Source of the DNA: Halomonas alimentaria
GTDB taxonomy: Bacteria > Pseudomonadota > Gammaproteobacteria > Pseudomonadales > Halomonadaceae
DNA length: 64,000 bases
Reading direction: 5' to 3'
NCBI RefSeq assembly: GCF_009902005.1
Contig: NZ_WUTT01000001.1
Coordinates: 1,452,541 to 1,516,540, forward strand
Below, piece by piece: positions 999-7,794 of the stretch; position 1 is the stretch's first letter; the number at the start of each line of letters is the position of its first letter. Both the position numbers and the translations under genes were made by a program. The notes beneath the pieces were generated by a model, which was not told the origin of the DNA, did no database searches, and worked only from the letters and a program-made list of their open reading frames with translations.

Positions 999-1115
999 GC
1001 GGCACCAGTCAATGCTGACGAGATTGCGCCTCGTAAGGCATGCCCTCGTCGAAAATCGTTTCCCAGTGCGCCGCCGGGGCTCCGGTGACGCGCTCAAATC
1101 CATGGGTGAGTGAAG

Positions 1116-1682
1116 ATGGCGAACTATTCTACCAACGAATTCAAGGCCGGTCTGAAGGTGATGCTCGACGGCGACCCCTGTGCGATCGTCGAGAACGAGT
1201 TCGTCAAGCCGGGCAAGGGCCAGGCGTTCAACCGCGTCAAGCTGCGCAACCTGATGACCGGCCGCGTCTGGGAGCGCACCTTCAAGTCCGGCGAGAGCCT
1301 GGAAGGCGCCGATGTCCTGGATCTGGATATGGAGTATCTCTATAACGATGGCGAGATGTGGTACTTCATGAAGACCGACGGCTCCTTCGAGCAGTATCCG
1401 GTGGAGAAGAAGGCCCTGGGCGACACCGAGAAGTGGCTCAAGGAGCAGGTGGTCTACACCATCACTCTGTGGAACGACAACGCCATCAGTGTGAGCCCGC
1501 CCAACTTCATCGAACTCGAGGTGACCGAGACCGACCCCGGCCTGAAGGGCGACACCGCCCAGGGCGGCTCCAAGCCGGCGACCCTCTCCTCCGGTGCCGT
1601 GGTGCGTGTGCCGCTGTTCATCAACGAGGGCGAGGTCCTCAAGGTGGATACGCGGAGCGGCGAGTACGTCTCCCGCGCCTGA
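1116..1682 (+). CDS. efp: Translation elongation factor P
   Basis: 188-residue EF-P, the normal length, with the KOW-like N-terminal domain followed by two OB domains. EF-P enters the ribosomal E site and rescues polyproline stalling. The modified residue is Lys34 in the loop VKPGKGQAF; a lysine here fits beta-lysylation by EpmA/EpmB, while rhamnosylated EF-Ps carry arginine. An ATG at 1116 gives the canonical MANYSTNEF start; an in-frame GTG six bases upstream is less likely. A purine-rich site (GGGTGAG) precedes it. The gene is divergent from epmB and is followed by a 120-bp structured repeat before epmA. Confidence 0.98.
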
Positions 1683-1704: not shown

Positions 1705-1824
1705 AGCGGCGCCGGGGACAGGTCGAAGCGGAGGTCCTATGCCACGGATGGCATCGGTAGCGCCCAGGGATGGGTTTACAGCGCCTCCGCGTAGGCCTGT
1801 CGCCGGATAAGCCGCGGCTTTGCA
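1705..1824 (+). repeat. Structured interspersed repeat, copy 1
   Basis: This 120-bp intergenic element has a second copy of identical length in opposite orientation at 6555-6674. It can fold into an outer stem (1712-1734 with 1784-1806, 19 of 23 positions complementary plus a G-T pair) enclosing a perfect 6-bp hairpin ATGCCA/TGGCAT (1739-1744 and 1749-1754) and a second hairpin around the conserved core at 1757-1784. No ORF or ribosome-binding site is visible inside. It lies between efp and epmA, so it would be transcribed if the two form one unit. Confidence 0.8.
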
Positions 1825-1829
1825 CTATG

Positions 1830-1853
1830 AAGGCCACGCTTATGCGTGGCCTT
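1830..1853 (+). terminator. Hairpin before epmA
   Basis: Perfect 10-bp stem AAGGCCACGC/GCGTGGCCTT with a TTAT loop. There is no T-tract after it, so it may be a weak terminator or attenuator between efp and epmA rather than a strong stop. Confidence 0.5.
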
Positions 1854-1875
1854 GGCGATTCTGGAGACCCTGAAG

Positions 1876-2862
1876 ATGATCGACGACTGGCGCCCCACGG
1901 CGACCATCGTGACCCTGCGCGAGCGGGCGCGGTTGATTGCCGAGGTGCGCACCTTCTTCGCCGAGCGCGGCGTGCTGGAGGTGGAGACCCCGGTGCTTGG
2001 CCATGGCGGCAGCACCGATGTGCATCTCGCGTCGCTATCCGCCGAGGCCACCACGCCTGCCGGGCGCGAGCGGCTGTGGCTGCAGACCTCGCCGGAGTTC
2101 GCCATGAAGCGGCTGCTGGCGGCGGGCGCAGGGCCTATCTTTCAACTGGCGCGCTGCTTTCGCGACGGCGAGGTGGGGCGGCGCCACAACCTCGAATTCA
2201 CCATGCTGGAGTGGTACCGCCCGGGCCTCCCTCTCGCTGCCCTCATCGAGGAGACCACCGATCTGGTGCGCCGGGTGCTGGGCCGAGAATCGGGGGATGA
2301 CCCCGTACCTCTGCGGCGTCGCCGTTATCGCGAGCTGTTCCGGGAGGCCCTGGGCATCGACCCCTTCACCGTGCCTATCGAAACGCTGCGTCGGCTGGCG
2401 GCGGAGCGGGGCGGACTTGCCATGGACGATGCCCCTCGTGACGACTGCCTCGACCTGCTGATGAGCCTGGTCATCGAGCCGCAGCTGGGGCGGGGCGGGG
2501 TCGAGGCGGTGGTGGACTACCCGGCGAGCCAGGCGGCCCTGGCCCGGCGCCACCGAGACCCCGAGGACGGGGAGTGGGTGGCCTCGCGGTTCGAGCTCTA
2601 TCTTGAGGGGCTGGAGCTCGCCAACGGCTACGACGAACTCACCGATGCCGCCGAGCAGGCCGCGCGCTTTGCCGAGGACAACGCCACCCGACGGGCGGCG
2701 GGGCTGCCGGAGGTAGACGTGGACGTGCGCCTGCTGGCGGCACTCGAGCACGGCATGCCAGCGGGCAGCGGCGTGGCACTTGGCATCGACCGGTTGATCC
2801 AGCTGGCGCTGGGCCACGAGAGCGTGGCGGAGGTCATGGCCTTCGCCACGCCGCGCTGTTAA
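1876..2862 (+). CDS. epmA: EF-P--(R)-beta-lysine ligase EpmA
   Basis: Class II lysyl-tRNA-synthetase paralogue without the anticodon-binding domain. It activates (R)-beta-lysine with ATP and transfers it to Lys34 of EF-P. The protein has 328 residues, normal for EpmA and far shorter than LysRS. Motif 2 is visible as [20 protein letters not shown] and motif 3 as [15 protein letters not shown] near the C-terminus. I chose the ATG at 1876 (GGAGA about 8 bases upstream) over a GTG at 1846, because the latter lies in the hairpin and adds unconserved residues. Its TAA stop shares the TTAA sequence with the stop of the convergent psd gene, a four-base overlap. Confidence 0.96.
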
Positions 2863-5940: not shown

Positions 5941-6546
5941 ATGAGTTCGCAAGCGTCAGCGAAAGAGAGCAAGCAGGATCCCCGCAAGCAGCGCCTGGTG
6001 TGGATCGATCTGGAGATGACCGGGCTGGACCCGGAGAAGGAACGCATCATCGAGGTGGCCACCCTGGTCACCGACGCCGAGCTCAACGTGGTCGCCGAGG
6101 GACCGGTGATTGCGGTCAGGCAGCCCGACGCCCTGCTCGGGGCGATGGACGAGTGGTGCACGAAGACCCACGGCGAGTCGGGGCTGACCGCGCGGGTGCA
6201 GGCCAGCGATATCGACACCGCCGAGGCCGAGCGGCGTACCCTCGAGTTCCTGCGCGAGCATGTCGACTCCGGCACCTCGCCGATGTGCGGCAACAGCATC
6301 CATCAGGATCGCCGCTTCCTGGAACGCGAGATGCCCGAGCTGCTGGCCTTCTTCCACTACCGCAACCTGGATGTCTCCACCCTCAAGGAGCTGGCCAAGC
6401 GCTGGAATCCCGGCGCCATGGCCGGCTTCAAGAAGCGCAACGTGCACCTGGCCATGGACGACATCAAGGAGTCCATCGCCGAGCTGGCCCACTACCGCGA
6501 GACCTTCCTGCGCCTGCCGGGCCAGTGGAGCGACGAGGAGGAATAG
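5941..6546 (+). CDS. orn: Oligoribonuclease
   Basis: 201-residue DEDDh 3'-5' exoribonuclease that degrades 2-5 nt RNAs, including pGpG from cyclic-di-GMP turnover. Asp23 and Glu25 ([10 protein letters not shown]), the later Asp in [10 protein letters not shown], and the His/Asp pair in [11 protein letters not shown] form the metal site. Its N-terminal tail is about a dozen residues longer than in Escherichia coli. A strong AGGAGA site precedes the ATG. It is convergent with queG, with the second copy of the 120-bp structured repeat between them. Confidence 0.98.
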
Positions 6547-6554
6547 GCCTCGTT

Positions 6555-6674
6555 GGCACAGGCGCGGCTTTTCCGGCGTCGGGTCCGATCGGGGGCGCTG
6601 TGAACCCATCCATGGGCGCTACCTCGGCCGTCCCTGGTCCTCGGACCCCCTCCGGACCAGCCCCCGGCGCCGCT
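6555..6674 (-). repeat. Structured interspersed repeat, copy 2
   Basis: 120 bp, collinear without gaps with the repeat at 1705-1824 when read on the minus strand. The core at 6595-6622 matches copy 1 at 26 of 28 positions, and the outer 13 bases at one end are identical. The stem arms differ in sequence from copy 1 but remain largely self-complementary. The inner ATGCCA/TGGCAT hairpin of copy 1 is not preserved here. It lies between the convergent orn and queG genes and may also serve as their shared transcript end. Confidence 0.8.
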
Positions 6675-6690
6675 CACTACCGCGGTGTCC

Positions 6691-7794
6691 TCAAGCGCTA
6701 GTAATGACGTTCTGGCGCCTTTCCTGCTGCCGGCCCAGCGCCCAGCGCACATGCTCGCGAACCAGGTCGGAGGGGTAAGCCAGCCGCGCGCGCAGCGCGG
6801 CCTCCACGGCTACGCTCCAGGGGGCGTTGCCCAGCCCTACGGCGAGGTTGCGCAGCCAGCGCTCATAGCCGATGCGGCGGATCGGGCTGCCGGCGGTCTT
6901 GTCCAGGAACTCCTCCTCGCCCCAGGCGAACAGCGACAGCAGGCTGGCGCGGTCGAGATCGTTGCGCGGCGTGAAGTCCTTCTCGGCAGTGGGGGTGGCG
7001 AAGCGGGTGAAGGGGCAGACCAGCTGGCAGTCGTCGCAGCCGAACACGCGGTTGCCCATGGCCTCGCGGTAGCGCTCGGGAATCACGCCGAACAGCTCGA
7101 TGGTCAGGTAGGAGATGCAGGCCCGGGCGTCCACCACGCGGTCCTCGACGATGGCGCCGGTGGGGCAGGCCGTGCGGCAGGCGCTGCAGCTGCCGCAGTG
7201 CTCGCCCTCGAAGGGCGGGTCCACCGGCAGCGGCAGGTCGGTATACAGCTCGCCCAGGAAGAACAGCGAGCCGGCCCGGGGGTTGAGCAGCATGGCGTTC
7301 TTGCCGACCCAGCCGAGCCCCGCCTTGCGGGCGAGGGCGCGCTCCATCACCGGTGCCGAGTCGACGAAGGCGCGGTAGCCGAAGGGCCCTGCCTCGGCCT
7401 CGATCCACTTGGCCAGCGTCGCCAGACGCTTGCGCATCAGCTTGTGATAGTCGCGGCCGGTGGCATAGCGCGATACATAGGCCGTCTCGGGCCGCTCCAG
7501 CGTGGCCAGGGTCTCCACCTCGGCGGGCAGGTAGTCCAGGCGCACGCTGATCACCCGTATGGTGCCCGGCACCAGCTCGGCGGGGCGGGTGCGCTTGGTA
7601 CCGTGCTTGGCCATGAAGCCCATCTCGCCATGCTGGCCGGCATCCAGCCAGCGCGAGAGGCGCGCCTCATCCTCGGCCAGGTCGACATCGGTGATGCCGA
7701 GCTGCTGGAAGCCGAGTTCGACTCCCCAGGCCTTGATGCGCTCGGCCAGGGCATGCAGATCGGGGGCGTCGGCGTGGACAGACGAGGAAGACAT
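6691..7794 (-). CDS. queG: Epoxyqueuosine reductase QueG
   Basis: 367-residue cobalamin- and iron-sulfur-dependent enzyme that reduces epoxyqueuosine to queuosine in tRNA position 34, the last step of the pathway. Two ferredoxin-like 4Fe-4S motifs are visible around residues 195-255: CGSCSACRTACPTGA and CDDCQLVCP. The N-terminal half is the cobalamin-binding domain. It is divergent from nnr, the same arrangement as in E. coli. The B12 dependence makes the cobalamin adenosyltransferase at 21022 relevant to corrinoid supply, although QueG itself uses cobalamin as a redox cofactor. Confidence 0.97.
   Translation of the reverse strand: MSSSSVHADAPDLHALAERIKAWGVELGFQQLGITDVDLAEDEARLSRWLDAGQHGEMGFMAKHGTKRTRPAELVPGTIRVISVRLDYLPAEVETLATLERPETAYVSRYATGRDYHKLMRKRLATLAKWIEAEAGPFGYRAFVDSAPVMERALARKAGLGWVGKNAMLLNPRAGSLFFLGELYTDLPLPVDPPFEGEHCGSCSACRTACPTGAIVEDRVVDARACISYLTIELFGVIPERYREAMGNRVFGCDDCQLVCPFTRFATPTAEKDFTPRNDLDRASLLSLFAWGEEEFLDKTAGSPIRRIGYERWLRNLAVGLGNAPWSVAVEAALRARLAYPSDLVREHVRWALGRQQERRQNVITSA

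Follow-up and report, generated by a model that had tools for sequence, protein, structure and literature searches.

Three described families stand closest to the repeat analysed here. YPAL/RU-2 is presented in the accessible parts of its literature as a family for which a conserved fold was predicted (PMC2267715) and which is mobile, occurs at filled and empty sites, lies with upstream genes and may affect the stability of upstream transcripts (PMC2229807). Ysr224 (Rfam RF02770), according to excerpts of the articles concerned, ranks among the 20 most prevalent sRNAs (PMC9029176) and is multi-copy with differing expression profiles (PMC12112432). TwoAYGGAY (Rfam RF01731), which shares its Rfam clan with RsmW, has been proposed as CsrA-binding in the quoted part of the RMfam paper (PMC4333381) and is listed for human gut, gammaproteobacteria and Clostridiales in that of PMC2864571. 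Within the openly licensed literature, no text naming both YPAL and CsrA was found, the texts on Ysr224 named neither YPAL nor TwoAYGGAY, those on TwoAYGGAY, as far as compared, named neither YPAL nor Ysr224, and the core letters of the repeat were not found; one excerpted article on palindromic repeats in Stenotrophomonas also mentions YPAL (PMC3733652).

The regulator itself is described in the accessible text of PMC7652899. The CsrA site obtained by SELEX is RUACARGGAUGU, mostly presented in a six-nucleotide hairpin loop, with an invariant ACA and most hairpins having four or fewer base pairs; RsmE contacts the A and the GGA of an ANGGAN hexaloop, and a CsrA dimer bridges two sites, best when these are more than 18 nt apart. 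Here we describe a repeat with two copies in a 64,000-nucleotide stretch of the Halomonas alimentaria genome (the window). We put a probability of about 0.6 on its being the Halomonas-type branch of a gammaproteobacterial MITE-like family, the YPAL/Ysr224/TwoAYGGAY group, whose RNA could be bridged by a CsrA dimer.

Two copies in the window and 70 places in the host genome

The consensus element consists of a multi-block outer stem that carries hairpin 1 and, closed by a junction of two pairs, hairpin 2. Copy 1 (outer stem and two-hairpin head, as drawn from alignment A1 described below) occupies 1706–1815 on the plus strand and was matched at 1714–1804 by covariance model R2 (E 3.4e-14). It lies between efp, encoding elongation factor P (1110–1682, plus strand, TIGR00038), the stop codon of which is 23 bp 5′ of the copy, and epmA/genX (1846–2862, plus strand, TIGR00462), the next gene in the 3′ direction, with a putative start codon. 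Hairpin 1 (1736–1757) carries the hexaloop ACGGAT at 1744–1749, and hairpin 2 with its junction (1760–1782) the hexaloop AGGGAT at 1766–1771, both of the form ANGGAN. Copy 2 occupies 6564–6673 on the minus strand (R2 match 6665–6575, E 1.9e-9), between the ends of queG on the same strand (6691–7794, minus strand, TIGR00276), with its stop codon 17 bp 5′ of the copy, and of orn, encoding oligoribonuclease, on the opposite strand (5941–6546, plus strand, NF003765), which ends 17 bp away. Both copies have the stop codon of a same-strand gene about 20 bp upstream.

A gapless 120-bp alignment of copy 1 (1705–1824, plus) with copy 2 (6674–6555, minus), reported in the preliminary description, was reproduced with 86 of 120 bases identical, including all of the first 13 and 26 of the 28 in the core (1757–1784), and the outer stem pairs in both copies, at 24 of 24 positions in copy 1 and 19 of 24 in copy 2 under the consensus structure. 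The inner hairpin that copy 2 was said to have lost is present as a bulged variant, which when folded keeps the loop CC[AGGGAC]GG (AGGGAC at 6630–6635, minus strand), and hairpin 2 of this copy has the loop ATGGAT at 6608–6613 on the same strand. A similar bulged hairpin occurs in another host copy (G000:C1:1192185, L060).

The case of only two copies in the genome, which would have spoken against that description, does not apply: covariance model R1 matched 70 element-strand places in the 3.29-Mb host genome (82 matches at E ≤ 1, less, by our own reading, nine opposite-strand duplicates and three very weak ones). R1 was built from A1, an alignment of 39 of 42 distinct host matches; of the three left out, one lies in a coding region and two have foreign sequence as their left half. 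All of the best 40 of 78 blastn candidates that were scored in the host genome matched, and the 16-base pattern GGATGGGTTNACAGCG, with at most one mismatch, occurred at 48 host places against none for a reversed-pattern control, so the repeat is far beyond chance. At least two ANGGAN hairpins are present in 65 of the 70 places, with the loops 22 nt apart in 63 and 69 nt apart in two; two of the 70 are deletion forms that keep the arms and lack the head, and 69 lie outside predicted genes. A search with window copy 1 alone gave no match in phage records and a single 1.8-Mb Halomonas record, with eight places, among plasmid records. In six loci (L046, L053, L191, L239, L310 and L317) another module, of the GGCTGGCCANGGATGGCCAGCAC...GCAGGGC type, replaces either the left half of the copy or an insertion in hairpin 1, and several of these module-swapped copies have a further CANGGANG hairpin.

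The paired loops resemble CsrA sites

Across the 39 aligned host copies, both hairpins keep the C, A, GGA and G of C-A-N-GGA-N-G without exception, and each N position holds three or four different letters. The head combines these two short hairpins with a fixed junction, AGCS...TTYACRGCG, on an outer stem that drifts. It resembles the CsrA site, as characterized in the accessible text of PMC7652899, in that its hexaloops are closed by a C-G pair, have their fixed and free positions in the same places and are suitably spaced; the sequence thus offers ANGGA in hairpin loops and two sites at a bridgeable distance, features of CsrA/RsmA sites. Among 117 heads collected across the class, hairpin 2 reads TACA-N-GGA-N-GTA in 46, which is nearly the whole SELEX site. 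The host copies depart from that site, however, in that the stem of hairpin 2 reads CC-A in 37 of 39, not AC-A as in SELEX, where ACA was invariant, and in that the stems of the element are strong whereas most SELEX hairpins have four or fewer base pairs (as given in the same part of PMC7652899). The pair next to the C-G closing pair is A-U, as in the SELEX site, in no more than those 46 of the 117 class-wide stems and in two of 39 host copies. CsrA binding to the element RNA is a specific prediction that can be tested.

A match to the CsrA gene is present in the host genome. Comparing two lists by eye, and taking CsrA as absent from two of the five negative genomes because the list of positives does not name them, we found CsrA in 72 of 77 element-positive genomes and in 241 of 292 others (Fisher p 0.019, kinship ignored). 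When completeness of 90% or more and contamination of no more than 5% were required, the numbers were 63 of 64 and 217 of 250 (p 0.0056, kinship again ignored). Four of the five element-positive genomes without a CsrA match (G065, G126, G157, G252 and G399) are incomplete, at 67–88%; the exception, G252, is 98% complete and has at least ten element matches.

CsrA sponge RNAs of the CsrB/RsmZ type also present GGA in hairpin loops as paired sites. They are dedicated sRNAs of few copies with many sites each, whereas each copy of the dispersed element has two. The sRNAs described in the accessible part of an article on CsrA sponges (PMC9788540) differ from the element.

Relatives across the Gammaproteobacteria

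R1 matched 34 of the 37 genomes that represent the genus (counting the host) and, elsewhere in the order, 5 of 21 from other families. A second model, R2, was built from an alignment (A2) of copies from across the class and by construction contains no copy with the 24-nt Halomonas spacing. R2 matched the host genome with E 6e-14; of 369 genomes sampled from the Gammaproteobacteria, 77 were positive, and these represent 69 of 272 genera. In a sample of the phylum 33 of 398 genomes were positive, all within the Gammaproteobacteria or nearer; at most 11 or 10 matches per genome were scored in the class and phylum searches, so that copy counts from them are at-least values and some weak matches may be missing.

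Searching genome contigs with hairpin 2 and the junction alone (AGCSNNCANGGANGNNTTYACRGCG) gave at least 117 stretches, and all 80 titles among the matches listed name gammaproteobacteria, by our own reading. Of the 117 heads with enough flanking sequence, 111 have complementary letters at both free outer pairs of hairpin 2 (CC/GG in 47, TA/TA in 46, TC/GA in 13, and rarer kinds), and the junction letters are coupled (C with G in 74, G with A in 42, G with G in one). Although the heads were found by hairpin 2 alone, CANGGANG lies within 40 nt upstream in 84 of 117 and downstream in none; a looser test, an ANGGA loop with a stem, was positive in 92. At the loci examined in three genomes (G039, G041 and G055), the head is kept and the long outer stem has a different, almost perfectly paired sequence in each copy. 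Copies in these genomes often form divergent inverted pairs about 25–110 bp apart (for example, at 1322–1414 minus and 1512–1604 plus in L158). In G051, stems and flanks are common to five of seven loci, which suggests a recent burst.

A Yersinia proxima copy (L219) ties the Halomonas repeat to YPAL: it was matched by R2 (E 1.2e-12) and is identical at 143 of 167 positions to the Y. pestis YPAL/RU-2 unit given in the accessible part of PMC2759123. YPAL/RU-2 shares with the window repeat the two ANGGAN hairpins, the AGCC...TTTACGGCG junction and the outer stem. The published unit is 168 bp long with its own ends and a C-G junction, whereas the window copies have the G-A type, and its target duplications of 3–26 bp (from the accessible text of PMC2229807) contrast with none identified at Halomonas copies. 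The window copies thus have the layout of head and stem but not the Yersinia ends of the 168-bp unit, and are not YPAL in the strict sense. They do belong to a broader YPAL/RU-2-like family as we define it here, by a two-hairpin ANGGAN head, an AGCS...TTYACRGCG junction and a longer stem in a dispersed intergenic repeat that is present or absent at orthologous sites.

The Rfam model of Ysr224 covers the same Yersinia copy (L219, 375–481 minus, 94 bits against a cut-off of 70), but its annotation follows the other strand, which lacks the ANGGAN loops. TwoAYGGAY is like the element in having two AYGGAY terminal loops on a poorly conserved external stem, whereas a high-copy, mobile nature is absent from its descriptions in the accessible parts of PMC4333381 and PMC2864571. 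In four further genomes of the order its model did detect members, with two places above the cut-off of 43 (47.6 and 43.5 bits), and the 43.5-bit place coincides with an R1 match. It gave no match at E ≤ 1 in the host genome and none at the cut-off on 18 loci from across the class. An Rfam scan of the 64-kb window at curated thresholds returned nothing, TwoAYGGAY included, and at permissive settings copy 1 was matched twice, at 16.7 bits; Ysr224 scored 16.7 bits there against its cut-off of 70. Because R2, a model of another spacing, finds both the window copies and YPAL, we group the window repeat with YPAL/RU-2, Ysr224 and TwoAYGGAY.

Unrelated carriers move the same head

The empty orthologous sites that the preliminary description had proposed to look for have candidates in the efp–epmA spacer: among 23 same-genus loci, the element is present in some form in eight and was not seen in 15. 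It is in the sense orientation in L175, L177, L187, L188, L191 and L192, antisense in L183 and a remnant in L186, the degenerate or antisense forms in L183, L186 and L187 being assigned by eye. The same spacer contains a second, unrelated palindromic repeat (CTCATACGNCGTTGAATCCCG type) in ten loci, as judged by eye (L176, L179, L181, L184 in degenerate form, L185, L188, L190, L195, L196 and L197), L188 having both repeats. In L177, L187 and L191 the efp stop codon is separated from the element by short tandem repeats of about 7 bp (GAGCTAC/GGGCTGC type).

Carriers transpose with target-site duplications in one distant genome (G305), where all nine fetched copies lie in a 161-bp carrier with inverted ends (AGCAATTCCC) flanked by direct duplications of 8–11 bp, the two features by which a MITE is recognised. 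In another genome (G124) the inverted ends have a different sequence (TTTTCAATG type) and extend over 28–34 aligned positions at each of the five copies checked, and further genus-typical carrier ends, identified by eye, surround an unchanged head in other genomes. Since the ends in G305 and G124 differ, unrelated carriers move the same head. A strong hairpin, GGTGCAGGGATGCACC or its complement-strand form, adjoins the carrier at the G124 loci (L361–L365), with a CANGGANG loop on one strand.

Such movement would also be expected if the folded strand were single-stranded DNA, its head being recognised by a transposase or another ssDNA enzyme for which, rather than for CsrA, the loops were kept. 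Single-stranded DNA would also tolerate the G-T wobble pairs reported below, and the host genome has three matches to the Y1 transposase family (L061, L062 and L063), two of them above the cut-off. However, none of the three lies beside an element copy, the nearest being about 10.6 kb away. The carriers differ between hosts while the head stays the same, which suggests that the head is cargo and not a transposase site, and the free N beside the fixed A and GGA follows the RNA-binding consensus. On this evidence we consider a role as an ssDNA substrate unlikely.

In REP/RAYT palindromes the stem letters are conserved, and a gene for a Y1 transposase lies next to them. A REP/RAYT origin was rejected, as the stems of the element vary, its loops are fixed and no copy has a Y1 match beside it.

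Placement relative to genes

At 69 host places (the one of 70 inside a predicted gene being omitted), the two neighbouring genes are both on the strand of the element for 40 copies and both on the opposite strand for 11, a same-strand bias of 40 to 11 (p 6e-5), and 13 copies are flanked by converging and five by diverging genes; 27 of the 40 same-strand copies start 20–50 nt past the upstream stop codon. A general rule of sense-strand placement in 3′ UTRs, suggested by the window and the host, failed beyond them. Among 40 high-scoring copies from seven other congeners, 19 were same-strand, 13 opposite-strand and eight diverging, without sense bias (p 0.38). The class-wide set (19 same-strand, 17 opposite-strand, 15 converging and 10 diverging, after omission of 65 of 126 copies: 33 near an end, 16 in crude open reading frames, 13 far from a gene and three without a flank) showed none either.

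Promoter and intrinsic terminator scans at both window copies found none, and terminator-like hairpins occur near few copies (for example, downstream of 6 and upstream of 4 of the 40 same-strand copies), so that a role as intrinsic terminator was unsupported. A short hairpin with a weak T-run, GGCCACGC...GCGTGGCC, lies at about 1830–1850 of the window between copy 1 and epmA; it went unflagged by the terminator scan and has a version in most same-genus efp–epmA loci, as judged by eye.

A generic hairpin that stabilises transcripts, as reported for Yersinia repeats, could act from such positions with no role for CsrA. The folds are very stable, at −66.9 kcal/mol for copy 1 and −61.5 kcal/mol for copy 2, the accessible text of PMC2267715 cites effects of ERIC and YPAL on mRNA stability in Yersiniae, and that of PMC2229807 considers the possible influence of YPAL on upstream transcripts. 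Stability by itself, however, leaves unexplained why A and GGA are kept in both loops of 39 of 39 host copies as the stems change, and why the junction is fixed across the class; we judge this explanation improbable.

Evidence for selection on the folded strand

Selection on folding, which the preliminary description had deduced from two copies, is supported by strong covariation across many. In A1, 96.6% of cells in paired columns pair, against 90.2% in shuffled alignments, and the covariation score is 0.228 against 0.101. Double changes occur in 17 pairs, compared with 7.6 after shuffling and 5–7 with the partner slid, so the lack of significant covariation among many aligned copies that would have counted against selection is not what the alignment gives. 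RNAalifold alone predicted 34 pairs from A1, 15 of them with double changes, and even the outermost arm pairs covary (columns 9–117: AU 13, GC 13, CG 8).

A2 comprises 46 of the 117 class-wide heads, selected for a spacing of 26 nt and for pairing at 14 or more of the 18 arm positions. Its 92.8% of pairing cells (57.9% shuffled) owe their arm pairing partly to this choice of rows with paired arms, hairpin 1 being unselected. Cells with double changes number 565, against 169 in shuffled alignments, and the covariation score reaches 0.886 (0.209 shuffled). How many pairs show double changes (32 of 35, against 29.9 shuffled and reached in 34 of 500 shuffles) does not discriminate, because the columns are so variable.

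The kind of imperfect pair distinguishes between strands. In the paired columns, G-T or T-G cells outnumber A-C or C-A cells by 69 to 9 in A1 (30 to 9 without one invariant G-U pair) and by 41 to 12 in A2, an excess that argues against a double-strand cruciform, which would not give such asymmetry. The course of change could be followed in a single orthologous spacer of Stenotrophomonas, where 30 loci gave 25 cut-outs, 21 of which were compared (12 of type C and nine of type B). Among type C sequences, pair 9–92 changes from GC to AT, 10–91 occurs as GC, GT and AT, 32–43 as GC, GT and CG, and 55–66 changes from TA to CG, with pair 34–41 broken in one row; in type B, 11–90 occurs as AT and GC, and 4–97 as GC, TA and two mismatched states. 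As double changes at this one locus pass through wobble or mismatched intermediates, they point to selection on the folded strand. That the pairing is instead kept by mutation, template switching correcting the imperfect palindromes of a neutral parasite, would suit the near-perfect stems that are unrelated between copies (G039, G041 and G055) and between genera, but it leaves unexplained the wobble and mismatched intermediates at single sites, the strand asymmetry of the wobble pairs and the conserved unpaired loop and junction letters, and is very improbable.

Discussion

The preliminary description, which had recorded neither the ANGGAN loops and the two-hairpin head nor the links to YPAL, Ysr224 and TwoAYGGAY, offered a mobile element, a binding site and an RNA motif as alternatives. 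Its interpretation is supported, and the three now look like aspects of one mobile, structured-RNA element to which a protein probably binds.

In the reading that we prefer, a mobile element bearing a CsrA-bridgeable RNA, the element strand would form a long stem, the sequence of which can drift provided that pairing is kept, topped by two short ANGGAN hairpins, 22 nt apart in the host, and a fixed junction. The element most likely acts as RNA. Because copies lie between genes, in the host mostly just 3′ of a same-strand stop codon, they can ride on neighbouring transcripts and would thus be transcribed in the host. There the stem may shield or shape the transcript end, and the head may serve as a pair of sites for one CsrA/RsmA dimer to bridge. 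The outcome would be either that a host mRNA is tied to CsrA or that free CsrA is titrated.

More tentatively, YPAL, Ysr224, TwoAYGGAY and the Halomonas repeat may possibly constitute one old mobile family with CsrA-binding RNA as its cargo, which, by inserting beside genes, would wire transcripts into the CsrA pool or drain it and so directly shape the set-point of a global post-transcriptional regulator.

The comparison links a high-copy repeat of the Halomonas type with three families that have carried separate names: a Yersinia MITE, an orphan structured RNA, and an sRNA family listed as one of the most prevalent in bacteria. It gives all of them one testable mechanism. R1 and R2 detect elements that the curated Rfam models mostly miss. 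In the host genome, the element copies amount to about 130 potential CsrA sites. If CsrA binds them, the Ysr224 annotation would denote the strand that lacks the motif, mobile elements would be a bulk source of CsrA sites, and the CsrA activity of a strain could vary through copy number alone.
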